Shown here: piece after piece, positions 32,727 to 37,684 of the stretch | How the letters are laid out: every line of letters starts with the position of its first letter | How positions within the stretch are numbered: position 1 is the first letter of the stretch | DNA from: Paenibacillus sp. OK003 | Lineage (GTDB): Bacteria; Bacillota; Bacilli; Paenibacillales; Paenibacillaceae | Direction of reading: 5' to 3' | DNA length: 64,000 nt | Assembly: GCF_900109515.1 (NCBI RefSeq) | Contig: NZ_FOBD01000005.1 | Span: 248,001-312,000 of the forward strand | Notes under the pieces: model-generated | Database searches by the model: none | What the model saw: only the letters and a program-made list of their open reading frames with translations | Told to the model about the DNA's origin: nothing | Program-made: the position numbers and the translations under genes

Positions 32727-33620
32727 TTATGCAGAGTCACTGCCTTCTGCCTTTACAATAGGTTCCTCTCCGTGGTGGCTCCGCACTCCTCCAGAAGTCC
32801 GTTCAGGCATTGCTTCAAGCTCGGTTTCCGCATAGCGTGCCAATACTTTGGCGGCTGTCTCAGACATTCGTTTTCGAAGCGCAGCGTTGTCTGCAATCCG
32901 TACCCGTTTGCCTAGAAAACGCATTTTGGACAGTACGTAATCCAGCTCATTTCGCGGAATGGTTAGTTCAATGCGGTACGTCTGTTGGGCTTCCACAAAT
33001 TCCACCTGCTTCTCGAAGCAGGAAAAGGCATATAGAATTCGCGACAACTCCTGATTAAACTCCGGCAGCACTTCGATCGTTACGGTTGTCTTCCGGTTCT
33101 CCGTTAAAATGGCGATTTTGGCAGCATACTGAGAAGCTGTTTCCGGTTGAAGCGGCTGGGCTTCCGCGGTAATGATGCTATGCAGCTTGGTGGACATCAG
33201 TTTGTTGTAGAGTGGAGCATACCAGAGTACGTACCATTCTTTTTTGACCATGGAATATTCGAGTTTGTAGGGGTATCCAAACTGATCCTGGCTGATTCGT
33301 CCATTGCGGACACGCCCTGTCAAACGAAACCCTTGATGATGCAAAATCATCTGCCGTAATGGTTTGAGCAGCGGATGAAAGACACTGTTTTCTTCACTTT
33401 TGGCTTTTTCGGTCAGGTAATCCTGAAGGTCCAGATCCTGCTCTGCATCCAGCATTTCATGCATTTTGTGCAACGTGTCAGGGTGCAGCGCTTCTGGTGC
33501 GGCAGGGTGATTCAGCATCATGCGCAGCCAGGCCCGTTCCTGGGATGTCCAGGTGAAAAGTCCGGTTTCATTCAATCTCGTCATCATCTGGTAGTTGAAC
33601 ATCTTCTCGAACAGATTCAT
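32727..33620 (-). CDS. WYL-domain protein, second of a pair
   Basis: A 297-residue protein. ATG 33620 is used. An in-frame TTG at 33632 sits too close to GGAG to be the start. The WYL-type motif appears as KKEWYVLWYAP near residue 165. The C-terminal third has the usual WCX-like end with IPRNELDYVLSKMRFLGKRV. A classic N-terminal helix-turn-helix is not obvious. It overlaps the preceding WYL gene by 53 bases, so the two are co-translated and probably form a pair. It diverges from the Ro60/Y-RNA locus, and WYL proteins are common controllers of nucleic-acid repair and defence genes. Confidence 0.82.
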   Translation of the reverse strand: MNLFEKMFNYQMMTRLNETGLFTWTSQERAWLRMMLNHPAAPEALHPDTLHKMHEMLDAEQDLDLQDYLTEKAKSEENSVFHPLLKPLRQMILHHQGFRLTGRVRNGRISQDQFGYPYKLEYSMVKKEWYVLWYAPLYNKLMSTKLHSIITAEAQPLQPETASQYAAKIAILTENRKTTVTIEVLPEFNQELSRILYAFSCFEKQVEFVEAQQTYRIELTIPRNELDYVLSKMRFLGKRVRIADNAALRKRMSETAAKVLARYAETELEAMPERTSGGVRSHHGEEPIVKAEGSDSA

Positions 33621-34923
33621 AATATTGCGCAATCTCCTTCCATTCCTTAATCATCTCCTGACGCAGCCTCTGTGGAGCGATCACCTCGCAGCTTGAACCA
33701 AAACTCCGAAGCCACGGCTTAATCTCGGTGGTACCGTTGACCTGAATTTCATACAGAAAGGTATGTTCCGTTTCGGGCGTAATCATTCCCCATTGGCCTT
33801 GCAAACGAACCCGATCCAGAATGAAGTTACGCTGGCCGTCCTGAGGATGGAAGAAGCGTGCTTGAACCGTTACGGTGTTCCCCGTATCCACCAGCCAGCT
33901 GTAGCGGCTGATTTCGGCCCACTGTTGCTTCAATTCGAGCATATATTCTTCTTCAATCGAATCCTGTTCCTCCAGCTGTGTAATGCCTTCCATCCGGAAT
34001 TTCACAAAGCCACGGCGTCCCTGATATCCAATGACATACCAGCGGCCATACTGATGGTCATAGACCACTTCAAGTGGTACGATCCGGTTGGATCGTCCGC
34101 CTGCTTCCCGTTCAAAGCGTGGATTCGTATTCTGCGAACTGTAGCTGGACGGTTTTTTGGGTGAATAATACAGAAACTGGATATGTTTTCGTTGGCGAAT
34201 CGCACTAAGCAGAGTGTACAGATGTGCTTCGTCCAGAATGCGTGAATAATAGTGGTACTTATATATGAATGGCTCGGTGGCTTCTTCCTGCGGATAACTT
34301 GCGGCAATGGCTTTTTTGAGACTGTCGCGCAATAAATATCCCTGCACGGACGGAACCTGGGTGTTCGCCATAATATCCACAAAATCATACAGCTCCAGCT
34401 GTTCTTCTACGGTTAGACCCGTAAGTACGTCCTGCTGCAAAAGGTAACGATAGGGCCTGCCGCCGGGTTGCTTGCGGATCACCCCGACTTCTTCCAGATA
34501 CTTCAGATCGGAGCGAATGGTCTTTTCGTCAGGCAGCGCCAGTTCCTCTGGCAGATCCGCGCAGCAGGCATCCAGTAATTCCATAGCGGTTAAAGCTTGA
34601 TCTTGCAGGGTATGCAAAAGGATAGAAAGACGCTGAACTTCAGTCTCTTTCATCGACTTGGCGCGAAAGAGGAAGAGCAGCATGGGCTCAGCAGATTCTC
34701 CGTACTGGAAGCGGACGAGATCCGCCATTTCTTTGTTTGGTTCCGAGCCTGAGCGTTGGTCAGCGACGGTCTGCATAATTTCTTTTAATCTGCGTTGGGT
34801 TTTATCAAAAGTATGTACGGATATGCCAAGCCGTTCGGCATACTGTTTACGGTTGTACGCACCACTTGTCAGGGACAACATGCGCAGAAATTGAATTTCT
34901 TTGTCAAAGCTTTCTTTAGCCAT
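33568..34923 (-). CDS. WYL-domain transcriptional regulator with HTH, first of a pair
   Basis: A 451-residue regulator. The N-terminal helix-turn-helix is GAYNRKQYAERLGISVHTFDK near residue 20 (quoted here as NRKQYAERLGISVHTFDK). A second winged-helix-like part lies near 150 (LKYLEEVGVIRKQPGGRPYRY). The WYL domain follows: RIVPLEVVYDHQYGRWYVIG near residue 290, then FVKFRMEGITQLEE. The start follows AAGGAG. It is transcribed away from the Y-RNA/Ro60/RlaP genes with a 440-base shared upstream region, so it may control them. Confidence 0.88.
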   Translation of the reverse strand: MAKESFDKEIQFLRMLSLTSGAYNRKQYAERLGISVHTFDKTQRRLKEIMQTVADQRSGSEPNKEMADLVRFQYGESAEPMLLFLFRAKSMKETEVQRLSILLHTLQDQALTAMELLDACCADLPEELALPDEKTIRSDLKYLEEVGVIRKQPGGRPYRYLLQQDVLTGLTVEEQLELYDFVDIMANTQVPSVQGYLLRDSLKKAIAASYPQEEATEPFIYKYHYYSRILDEAHLYTLLSAIRQRKHIQFLYYSPKKPSSYSSQNTNPRFEREAGGRSNRIVPLEVVYDHQYGRWYVIGYQGRRGFVKFRMEGITQLEEQDSIEEEYMLELKQQWAEISRYSWLVDTGNTVTVQARFFHPQDGQRNFILDRVRLQGQWGMITPETEHTFLYEIQVNGTTEIKPWLRSFGSSCEVIAPQRLRQEMIKEWKEIAQYYESVREDVQLPDDDEIE

Positions 34924-35170
34924 GAATATTCACTCCTTGGTGGCCTGGAGTCAGGCGGATATAGTGGATGACTAAGTTGGCAGAACAATTCTGCGATATA
35001 TAGAAACATTCGTGATCTTCCCATTTACTATATCCCTACATTGTATCAGGATGAGTGGCTGGTTTCATTTTAAACTTATGGAGGTCGCCATACTTTCGCC
35101 ATGTTCGCGTGCAGACGTGTGAGGCATAATAAGGTTGTGAAGCGGGACAGCAACAAACTCTGCGGATCAA
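34924..35170. promoter_or_regulatory. Shared upstream region of the WYL and Y-RNA/Ro60 units
   Basis: No gene is seen. It must hold the divergent promoters. A TTGGCA (34977-34982) with an AT-rich stretch 17 bases downstream and a CATAAT (35125-35130) are the only promoter-like words I find, and both are weak. Confidence 0.35.
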
Positions 35171-35308
35171 GGTTCCGAGGCGCCAGGGAGGGTTACTTCG
35201 ACTGTTAATCGACCAGGTCGTTGGTTCGAATCCAATCGCCGCCGTTCATGGCGGTGTAGCTCAGCGGTAGAGCGGGTATTATACCTTCCCCCCTTTTTCC
35301 TCGGAACA
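35171..35308 (+). ncRNA. Y RNA with a permuted tRNA(Asn)-like module
   Basis: The region folds into nested stems. GTTCCGAGG (35172-35180) pairs with CCTCGGAAC (35299-35307), and GGGAGGGT (35186-35193) pairs with ACCTTCCC (35283-35290); together they resemble the GGUCCGA helix bound by Ro60. Inside comes a tRNA in rotated order. First is an arm TCGA-CTGTTAA-TCGA (35198-35212) with an Asn-type anticodon loop (GTT 35204-35206). Next are CCAGGTCG, the T arm GTTGG-TTCGAAT-CCAAT (35220-35236), acceptor 3' strand CGCCGCC (35237-35243), loop GTTCAT, acceptor 5' strand GGCGGTG (35250-35256), TA, and D arm GCTC-AGCGGTA-GAGC (35259-35273). All seven acceptor pairs form (one G-U). It lies 50 bases before the Ro60 gene. 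tRNA-like bacterial Y RNAs are known (YrlA type); this is the first of its kind I can place here by eye. Transcript ends are estimates. Confidence 0.85.
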
Positions 35309-35358: not shown

Positions 35359-36852
35359 ATGAGCAGAGCAAAACAATTATTCAATCAACCTCAGCCAACG
35401 ACTCGTAATCATGGGGACTACGGAGCCTATGAGCGATTGGTGGAGGAACAATATATACAGATGTTGTTGACCAATACATTGAACAATACGTTCTATGCAG
35501 ATACACAGCAATTGATGGACGATGCGATGGTCAGTCATCAGGAGATGGCTTAGGTCGATGCAGGGTTTATGGCTCGGGCGCTGGTCTATGCTCGTAATGA
35601 AGGCTTGATGCGTTTACAGCCTCTGTACGGACTGGCACTGTTGTCCAAGGTGGAGTCGGATCAGTTTGCAAAGATATTCTCCAAGGTCGTACAGACCCCG
35701 GCTGACTTGGCCGATTTTCTGACGATTCTAAGAGGAACAGGTCGGGGGCAGGGCGGTCGAGCGGTGAAGCGTCAGGTAAGTCAATTTTTGAACGGCATTA
35801 CTGAATATTGGGCAATCAAATACAACGGGCGCGGACGTGGATACAGTCTGGGCGATATGATCGCTACAGCACACCCCAAGCCGACAGATAGGAAGCAACA
35901 AGCCTTGTTCCGTTATTTGCGAGGACATGAGGTGGATCTTACGGACCTGCCGCAGTTGCAGGCGCTGGAAAAACTGAAGGCTACTCCAAACCCGGCAAGT
36001 CGGATGCATCTGATCCAAAAAGGCAAACTGCCGTATTCGGTGGTCACATCGATCATGCAGCCGACACGTACAGTATGGGAGGCGTTAATGTCGCAGATGC
36101 CGACCTTTGCATTGTTACGTCATCTGAATGCGATGGATCGGGCGGGAGTGTTTGAAAAATCGAAAAATATCGATTACGTAACGGGCCGTCTAACGGATGC
36201 AGAAGCCCTGCGCAAGTCGCGCATCTTGCCTTTCCGCTTCGCCAGTGCGTATGAAATGATCGCAAGAGAAGAGCTGCGCTATGCTTTGCGGGAAGCGGTG
36301 GAGCTATCGATTGGCAACCTGCCATCGCTGCCGGGAAGAACCGCCATTTTCCTGGATCGCTCCGGTTCCATGCAAGGGGATTATTTGCGGATTGGATCGG
36401 TGCTGGCACTGGCGCTATATAAACAAACACGAGGCAACTCGCTGTTCTGGTTATTCGACCATATGGTTGAGGATGCTCGTCCTAAGATGAATGAAAGCAT
36501 CCTTTCCCAAGCTCACCGAATTCGCGCACAAGGTGGAACCGACACGGGACGGCCTGTACGAGAGCTTCGGGATATCGGAGAGAAAGTGGATCAGATCATT
36601 ATGATCACCGATGAACAGCAGAATGAAGGCAGTCCGTTATATGTTGAGCTTGAACGTTATCGGCGGATGATGAATCCGGATCTGAAAGCATTTATTGTGG
36701 ATATTGCACCTTATCAGCAGGCAATGGTGCCGCCACGGGATGGTAAAACCTTTTATATCTATGGGTGGAGTGAAACGGTACTGACGTATATTGCTGAGAC
36801 TATAGCGGGATATGATACACTTGCGAGCCGGGTGAGAGAGATAGAGATTTAA
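35359..36852 (+). CDS. rsr: Ro60/Rsr-like TROVE and vWA protein, interrupted by in-frame TAG
   Basis: A ring-shaped RNA-binding protein family that binds Y RNAs and misfolded or damaged RNAs. The frame opens at ATG 35359 (GGGAGG nine bases upstream) and is a continuous TROVE reading, except that codon 65 is TAG (35551-35553). Before it lies LTNTLNNTFYAD (TROVE start). After it come ARALVYARNEGLMRLQPLYG, LADFLTILRGTGRGQGGRAVK and MIATAHPKP. The C-terminal vWA domain has a full MIDAS: DRSGSM, Thr in GGTDTGRP and Asp in MITDEQ. Total length is about 497 codons, normal for Rsr. The stop means either a nonsense mutation, readthrough, or restart at ATG 35569, which would lose the first 70 residues. 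Neighbours support an intact Ro60 system. Confidence 0.88.
35551..35553 (+). other. In-frame amber codon in the Ro60 gene
   Basis: TAG followed by G, between GAG ATG GCT and GTC GAT GCA. The frame on both sides is TROVE-like, so this is a single-codon interruption and not a frame change. Confidence 0.85.
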
Positions 36853-36877
36853 ATTGGAAAATGTGGAGGCCACAGAG

Positions 36878-37684
36878 ATGACTCATGTTCATGAAGAAAT
36901 GAGAGATACGATTAGACAGCAGCTGAAGCAGATTGAACAGGAGGAGCAGGTGCGGATTATCTATGCCTGTGAATCGGGCAGCCGGGCATGGGGATTTCCT
37001 TCACAGGACAGCGATTATGATGTTCGTTTTCTGTATGTGAGACCGCTGGAATGGTACTTGTCGATTGAGGAACAAAGGGATGTTATCGAACGCCCAATCA
37101 GTGATCAGCTCGATATTAATGGTTGGGATTTGCGCAAAGCCTTGAAGCTGTTTCGCAAGTCGAATCCACCGCTGCTGGAGTGGCTGCAATCTCCGATTCA
37201 GTATGACGAACCGTACAGCGTGGCAGAGCATATTCGTGCACTGTCGCCGTTGACCTTCTCACCGAAGTCCTGTATGTATCATTATCTGAATATGGCAAAG
37301 GGTAATTTCCGTGATTATCTACAGGGTGAGCAGGTGAGGATTAAAAAGTATTTCTACGTGCTGCGCCCACTGCTCGCGTGTGGCTGGATCGAACGTTATG
37401 ATGCGATGCCGCCAATGGCATTTGAAGAGCTGGTGCAAGAGCTTGTTCCTCAGAGCGCGCCGCTCTATACGGAAATCCATGAGCTGCTGTGCCGGAAAAA
37501 GGCAGGTGAGGAACTCGACCTGGAACCTCAGCTGCCCGCGATACAGGCTTTTTTGGCGGAGAAGATCGAACATTTTGAACAACTGGCCGCTCAACTGGAG
37601 AATGAACAGATTATTCCATATGAAGAACTGGACCGGATTTTCCGTTTTGCACTGCAAGAGGTGTGGGCGGCAACCTGCGATTAA
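36878..37684 (+). CDS. RlaP-type nucleotidyltransferase, RNA-repair linked
   Basis: A 268-residue protein of the Pol-beta nucleotidyltransferase superfamily. The active site is ESGSRAWGFPSQDSDYDVRF near residue 38: GS, then Asp-Ser-Asp-Tyr-Asp for the metal-binding acids. DLRKALKLFRKSNPPLLEWL is the follow-up helix of this family (I match it to Pfam RlaP, PF10127, from memory). RlaP proteins were named for their association with RNA ligases in predicted RNA repair systems. ATG 36878 has GGAGG eight bases upstream and is preferred to TTG 36854. It starts 25 bases after the Ro60 stop, so both are one unit. It probably adds or removes nucleotides at RNA ends. Confidence 0.85.
   Translation: MTHVHEEMRDTIRQQLKQIEQEEQVRIIYACESGSRAWGFPSQDSDYDVRFLYVRPLEWYLSIEEQRDVIERPISDQLDINGWDLRKALKLFRKSNPPLLEWLQSPIQYDEPYSVAEHIRALSPLTFSPKSCMYHYLNMAKGNFRDYLQGEQVRIKKYFYVLRPLLACGWIERYDAMPPMAFEELVQELVPQSAPLYTEIHELLCRKKAGEELDLEPQLPAIQAFLAEKIEHFEQLAAQLENEQIIPYEELDRIFRFALQEVWAATCD

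Follow-up and report, generated by a model that had tools for sequence, protein, structure and literature searches.

The closest described counterpart of the RNA analyzed here is YrlA (RF02553; Salmonella YrlA, PDB 6CU1). The 6CU1 RNA is described in part of one report as circularly permuted relative to tRNAs (PMC11472068), and passages of a second report assign D, T and acceptor-like arms to YrlA, name DusA and TruB as enzymes that modify it, and state that its stem and its tRNA-like part bind Rsr and PNPase (PMC8394870). In one review passage, the mimic in bacterial Y RNAs is described as imitating the D, T and acceptor arms only. The Rfam YrlA consensus contains no anticodon loop; its anticodon-like stem continues directly into the Y stem. 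Circular permutation of the tRNA mimic in Y RNAs is thus already known, and the complete anticodon arm is what is new here. tmRNA, which has a real acceptor end and gets charged, differs in that its tRNA part does not sit within a Ro60 RNA. The partial imitation of a tRNA inside a regulatory RNA is a feature shared with tmRNA and other tRNA mimics, as outlined in a passage of PMC8394870. In the literature listings and passages covered, all of them outside the primary papers (Chen 2014; Wang 2018), neither a closed anticodon loop nor a split anticodon stem was described for a Y RNA.

The window, namely the whole stretch of DNA that was analyzed (64,000 nt from Paenibacillus sp. OK003), contains an RNA of this type (Table 1). 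As with YrlA, the RNA lies beside rsr, here directly upstream of it, its two ends form a long stem, its arms follow the identical permuted order, and the strand that follows the D arm forms a stem with the one that precedes the T arm. The earlier note on this DNA, made from the letters alone, had proposed a circularly permuted tRNA-like module in a YrlA-type Y RNA adjoining a Ro60 gene; the proposal was borne out by the Rfam match, the TROVE gene and the Y RNAs found upstream of rsr in relatives. The order that it gave (base helix, CTGTTAA loop, T arm, acceptor around GTTCAT, TA and D arm) was likewise located in the sequence in all its parts.

Table 1. Elements of the permuted Y RNA and its neighboring genes in the window.
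Feature	Position	Strand	Remark
Base helix, 5' strand GTTCCGAGG	35172-35180	+	Columns 2-5 show both-side changes in the alignment of relatives
Ro-binding stem, 5' strand, with GGGTTAC, then CTTCG	35186-35196	+	Presumed Ro60 binding
Anticodon stem, inner 5' strand TCGA	35198-35201	+	Inner pairs also in other clades
7-nt anticodon-like loop CTGTTAA	35202-35208	+	U33 at 35203; triplet GUU 35204-35206
Anticodon stem, continuous 3' strand TCGACC	35209-35214	+	Six pairs in the window's clade, mostly five elsewhere
Variable loop AGGTC	35215-35219	+	
T arm, loop TTCGAAT	35220-35236	+	Rfam YrlA match and alignment of relatives
Acceptor stem, 3' strand	35237-35243	+	
Loop GTTCAT connecting both acceptor strands	35244-35249	+	Sequence and length vary in relatives
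Acceptor stem, 5' strand	35250-35256	+	Alignment of relatives
TA (positions 8-9) and D arm GCTC-AGCGGTA-GAGC	35257-35273 (D arm 35259-35273)	+	
Anticodon stem, outer 5' strand GG (positions 27-28)	35275-35276	+	Pairs with CC 35213-35214
Ro-binding stem, 3' strand	35281-35290	+	Alignment of relatives
Base helix, 3' strand CCTCGGAAC	35299-35307	+	
Conserved TACTTTCGCCATGTTCG upstream of the Y RNA	35091-35107	+	Possible promoter or operator
rsr (TROVE/Ro60)	35359-36852	+	Profile match TROVE 3.2e-15
RlaP family nucleotidyltransferase (PF10127)	36854-37684	+	
WYL/WCX regulator, divergent	33568-34923	-	

The Rfam YrlA model matched 35212-35278 of the window with 31.6 bits (E 3.7e-5) against a gathering score of 69, and no Rfam family reached gathering level in the window. 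Among the relatives, 33.8-40.5 bits were obtained in seven of nine sources at E 0.01, L058 and L064 giving no match at this threshold. Because the scores fall below gathering, the RNA is regarded as a YrlA-like variant and not as a member of RF02553; a Ro60/Rsr gene adjoins it (TROVE, 3.2e-15), and T arm, acceptor hairpin and D arm stand in the permuted order. What sets RNAs of the window type apart from Rfam YrlA is an insert, measuring 15 nt in both L066 and L071, that closes a 7-nt loop, the Ro stem becoming a side branch. When the Rfam model was aligned end to end to L066 and L071, the 15-nt insert had the form UUCG[A/C]-N7-[U/G]CG; the inserts in other end-to-end alignments measured 13 nt in L192, 11 nt in L049, 7 nt in L067 and 3 nt in L191.

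Scans for promoters and terminators in the surroundings of the Y RNA gave nothing above shuffles. In 28 of 42 loci (the window and 41 others), the first Y RNA is preceded by the conserved TACTTTCGCCATGTTCG or its variant TACTTCCGCCATGTTCG, a possible regulatory site, perhaps of the WYL protein. In tblastn searches with the window proteins, RlaP was found in 32 and the WYL gene in 33 of the 41 loci, and the window's genome carries two RtcB genes elsewhere and one TGT gene. An in-frame TAG occurs in rsr (35551-35553, codon 65), in place of a sense codon in the rest of the window's clade; either Rsr is possibly interrupted in this strain, or the TAG is a sequencing error.

The Rsr search yielded 41 loci, and the closest named relatives by Rsr are Paenibacillus taichungensis strains (97%). 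In many of the loci, rsr is preceded by as many as three Y RNAs. Three kinds were distinguished: Y-A resembles tRNA and is the kind present in the window, Y-B lacks tRNA arms, and Y-C has only the T arm; motif searches found Y-A alone in the window's clade. A covariance model built from 27 Y-A RNAs, the window included, was run on 394 family, 398 class and 398 phylum genomes, in overlapping sets. Full-length matches (E ≤2.4e-23) were obtained in 75 of the 394 family genomes, and the tally of 385/394 consists mostly of partial matches to positions 27-100. Rows for parsing were drawn from the best 150 of 161 matches. From the retrieved loci, 89 Y-A-like rows were parsed, 14 of which (tandem tRNA arrays, two degenerate copies and L148) were set aside, so that 75 distinct Y-A RNAs were retained. 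A set of 57 rows was formed from these by removing 18, namely twelve six-pair rows (the window and its clade among them), L141, L144, L147, L178, L192 and L058; the window's clade is absent from it because the extra pair brings gaps. The Rsr tree comprises 95 sequences, with the stem label of L280 and L271 set by hand, L272 excluded from the stem counts and L192 on a very long branch.

In 5 of 100 loci (L269, L282, L052, L059 and L062), Y-A was not detected. L269 and L282 were counted there only through the context filter, both genomes having a Y-A RNA; L052 and L059 gave none in the motif search either; and L062 has a Y-A RNA (2401-2479) in which acceptor and D arms are deleted between the T arm and the base helix. 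The set-aside locus L148, from a genome of the same genus (G099), contains two diverged Y-A-like copies (191-325 and 862-1000) and, by eye, a split stem of its own; the triplet of the first copy is UGU, and the base helix differs (CGAGTCG).

Compensatory changes in the stems predicted by the earlier note are present among the relatives, both in columns 2-5 of the base helix and in the acceptor stem, where changes on both sides with pairing kept occur in one row or more for all seven pairs. The window RNA (35172-35307) was more stable than its shuffles (z -3.30; 2 of 200 equally low).

That note had given the anticodon arm incompletely: GG, which follows the D arm, can pair with CC and so complete the stem as its outer pairs (Table 1). 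In tRNA numbering, the 3' strand 39-43 pairs through 42-43 with 27-28, which follow the D arm, and through 39-41 with the three bases before the loop (29-31). The arm of the window consists of GG together with TCGA-CTGTTAA-TCGACC and has six pairs.

In the 57 rows outside the window's clade, the split pairs 27-43 and 28-42 were paired in every one of the 114 cells, 21 of which had changed on both sides. Their covariation score was 0.565, compared with 0.259 for shuffles (none of 500 reached it), and was ≤0.033 after sliding by 1-3 columns, with the caveats that a slide of -3 leaves 82.5% of the cells paired, without covariation, and that the number of pairs with both-side change (2) was equalled in 50 of 500 shuffles. 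The window's clade also pairs at these positions (GG/CC); over all 75 rows, this clade included, 146 of 150 cells were paired at the fixed positions, the shuffles having a mean of 105.5 and a maximum of 118 in 5000. When split and inner pairs of the 57 rows were taken together, 99.6% of 285 cells were paired. The inner pair 31-39 was A-U in 43 rows, C-G in 13 and G-C in 1, and two of the three inner pairs are nearly invariant because CTTCG is conserved for other reasons. The minimum numbers of changes on the Rsr tree were 6 at position 27, 11 at position 28 and 9 at position 31. On the evidence of covariation, the predicted anticodon-stem pairs exist in the relatives.

Nearest-neighbour folding of 69 rows gave median pair probabilities of 0.029 for the inner and 0.001 for the outer pairs (0.029 and ~1e-5 in the window), and RNAalifold left the split-stem region open. 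Energy folding lends the split stem hardly any support; covariation was weighted above it because folds of the tRNA kind depend on tertiary contacts and because helices of two pairs are put at a disadvantage. Stacking of the two short helices into one anticodon stem is favoured, since the strand is continuous without an unpaired base, and they would thus form a single arm. In L049 (= L147), L067 (= L178) and L058 there is no hairpin, and an ordinary YrlA stem is found instead. L058 (2378-2514) and L057 (2355-2484) are near neighbours on the Rsr tree, yet L058 has the ordinary stem TTCGT/ACGAA; judged by these sequences, the contrast is a fairly recent switch between the two architectures.

The loop measured 7 nt in 70 of 72 closed hairpins, with L144 (11 nt) and L192 (8 nt) as exceptions, in a parse of the 75 rows that gave 7 nt a small bonus. 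When the window and the 41 loci were parsed without the bonus, 10 of 14 distinct Y-A hairpins were closed, all of them with 7 nt, and four were not closed. U33 was found in 68 of 69 rows and in 13 of 14 distinct loops. In the same 69 rows, position 36 was U in 65, 37 was A in 66 and 38 was A in 67, and positions 34 and 35 were variable. At least 23 triplet changes were counted on the Rsr tree (10 at position 34, 16 at 35 and 4 at 36), along with 5 changes at position 32, 1 at 33, 3 at 37 and 2 at 38. The triplet is constant inside the window's clade and variable beyond it, and the triplets found would fit Asn, Lys, Arg, Tyr, Thr, Gly, Ile, Ser and Pro tRNAs. Such free change of the triplet means that the module is not tied to one tRNA identity; a shape that is kept while the anticodon letters change suggests a generic tRNA look-alike and not the relic of one tRNA. 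A separate candidate, that natural anticodon loops are commoner than chance, was rejected: 6 of the 14 distinct loops occur in own tRNAs (the Lys loop CTTTTAA was entered in that list by hand), and this overlap was not counted as significant because the C-U...U-A-A frame is shared.

We consider it probable that the window RNA is a Y RNA of the YrlA type with a permuted tRNA mimic completed to four arms, most likely a generic one. Base and inner stems would be held by Rsr, judging from known Y RNAs and the shared frame, and the tRNA module would project outward. The anticodon stem would be split, with its 3' strand pairing both with positions 27 and 28 and with a three- or four-base strand after the Ro stem; the Ro stem would branch off sideways where the stem is interrupted, between 28 and 29, and the helices would stack into an anticodon stem of five or six pairs that carries a 7-nt loop. 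Such a module would most likely let Rsr recruit, or compete for, readers of the tRNA elbow and the anticodon arm, such as PNPase, modifying enzymes or nucleases. That tRNA-modifying enzymes recognise the module is plausible.

The locus, with rsr, RlaP and a WYL regulator, would provide a setting of RNA-repair character. According to passages of PMC7824862, the predicted role of RlaP is the restoration of bases that anticodon loops have lost, and a link to cyclic nucleotides exists for WYL domains. In the passages of PMC7790460 on Salmonella, the operon responds to tRNA cleavage, YrlA itself is not cut by the nuclease studied, and YrlA is suggested as a competitive inhibitor of anticodon nuclease. 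An Rsr-held tRNA mimic of full shape may thus act in a tRNA-damage setting, and the inhibitor idea, as worded in that source (PMC7790460), would gain a closer substrate mimic. A natural four-arm permuted tRNA with a split anticodon stem and switching triplets separates tRNA shape from tRNA identity. It also offers a direct test of the role of the tRNA-like part of Y RNAs, as readers of the anticodon arm can be sought as partners.

The hairpin could also be merely part of a Ro60-binding module common to several Y RNAs, with its likeness to an anticodon arm as a by-product. The frame GAGGCG...GGGTTACTTCG...TTCCTC, with variations, is common to Y-A, Y-B and Y-C and is presumably the Ro-binding part. 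In favour of a by-product, the 5' strand CTTCG is also common to all three, 17 of 20 distinct Y-C rows (one of them a truncated Y-A) have a closing hairpin at the corresponding site, and the anticodon triplet is not conserved. However, CTTCG is kept in 15 of 21 distinct Y-B rows, yet in 17 of the 21 no such hairpin was detected (L060 and L071, among the 17, were read one motif too early). The 3' strand of Y-A, moreover, runs without a gap into the covarying pairs that it forms with the bases following the D arm, and 68 of 69 Y-A rows have U33. Loop length differs as well: 7 nt in 70 of 72 Y-A hairpins, as opposed to 6 nt in 10, 7 nt in 5 and 5 nt in 2 of 17 Y-C hairpins. Y-C has a related hairpin (5-7 nt loops), and therefore part of the hairpin may serve Rsr; as an account of the whole arm, the Ro60-module explanation is regarded as unlikely. 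Y-C is perhaps a worn-down tRNA mimic. Further Y RNAs (Y-B, Y-C) occur in many loci, e.g., in L042 (2562-2765) and L048 (2521-2756). Viral Y RNAs were considered and rejected: the Y core motif was present in 52 viral stretches, with only two weak partial model hits (E 9e-4; L224 and L245), that in L224 lying away from the motif, and the 24 distinct viral motif surroundings were unlike Y RNAs.

A more specific function, to which we give a rather small chance, is that of bait, the anticodon arm serving as a Ro60-held decoy or sensor for anticodon nucleases and its triplet being redrawn as the attackers change. After a cut in the loop, base and Ro stems would keep both pieces held, and repair might follow through the neighbouring RlaP, by its predicted base restoration, and the RtcB ligases of the cell. 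Against this stand the Salmonella YrlA, reported in the relevant passages of PMC7790460 to be uncut by the nuclease studied (the family consensus being without the loop), and RlaP, which does not track the hairpin: in the 41 loci no association of RlaP with the hairpin was seen, RlaP being present also in the hairpin-less L049 and L058.

With the generic mimic as the preferred reading, the origin of the module remains to be considered. The earlier note had suggested that it may derive from tRNA(Asn) and could be recognised by asparaginyl-tRNA synthetase (AsnRS), a view that accords with the CTGTTAA loop, the tRNA-like core, the name tRNA-Asn given by ARAGORN to the un-permuted window sequence, and the place of the own tRNA-Asn among the nearest tRNAs (34/47). 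When the anticodon region of the window RNA was shuffled, however, 222 of 300 sequences were still called tRNA by ARAGORN. Global identity was discarded as a measure of likeness to own tRNAs, a spurious Met alignment with large gaps having been obtained, and a position-by-position comparison was used instead, in which positions outside the acceptor and the triplet were compared with 50 distinct tRNAs of the same genome. The signature of the window's clade (row L136) agreed at 35 of 47 positions with Met and at 34 with Phe, Ile and Asn, so that Met is placed ahead and Phe and Ile level with Asn. In GUU rows, Asn ranked 1st-6th (15th in L190), and in UUU rows Lys ranked 1st-9th, often tied with Phe; some likeness to the cognate tRNA thus exists in these rows, by this sequence comparison. 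In UCU, GUA, UCC, GCU and UGG rows, the cognate tRNA came only 10th-32nd, with Phe, Lys, Asn or others ahead (12th-31st for tRNA-Arg(UCU) in UCU rows), and Ile was 3rd in the single GAU row.

The triplet, moreover, is unstable on the Rsr tree (at least 23 changes), and an acceptor end is lacking. G 35244, taken in the note for the discriminator base, is not conserved, the cap loops of relatives starting with G, T, A or C. An origin of the module from tRNA(Asn) is therefore unsupported: the comparison does not set Asn apart from Met, Phe or Ile, the triplet shifts, and relatives do not share the base that follows the acceptor strand. As a short loop joins the acceptor strands, charging by AsnRS is unlikely. 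Descent from tRNA(Asn), with or without recognition by AsnRS, is thus held to be very improbable.

Circularly permuted tRNA genes of algae and archaea resemble the module in that the 3' half precedes the 5' half, but, according to the passages concerned in PMC3978253, they are spliced at bulge-helix-bulge motifs into working tRNAs, unlike the Y RNA, whose ends are sealed in stems. That the window holds such a gene, processed to a working tRNA, is hardly credible: 37 of 39 un-permuted modules were called tRNA by ARAGORN (subject to the shuffle result below), but the acceptor strands are linked by a short variable loop without a conserved CCA, the ends are sealed in long conserved stems, and the genome already has ordinary tRNA-Asn genes. 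In natural order none of the 39 RNAs was called, and the window as given yielded no ARAGORN tRNA call. As evidence for an anticodon arm, the calls were rejected because shuffled modules are still called: in a control with nine representatives and two kinds of shuffle, 207-290 of 300 sequences with the anticodon region or arm shuffled were called in each case.

Tandem tRNA genes are named in a passage of PMC3978253 as a plausible source of permuted tRNA genes. The Y-A model also matched junctions of tandem tRNA genes (L093, L161, L179-L188, L199 and L205), and by analogy such junctions are a likely source of the Y-A tRNA module. In four Cohnella and one Paenibacillus of the 41 loci, 2-14 ordinary tRNA genes were observed upstream of the Y RNA and rsr (L068, 409-1749; L052, 1886-2439; L047, 1874-2275; L051, 2037-2190; L044, 2230-2389). 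These groups include His, Gln, Lys, Pro, Glu, Asp, Ile, Asn and Trp tRNAs, and a tRNA reserve beside a tRNA-damage locus would make sense.
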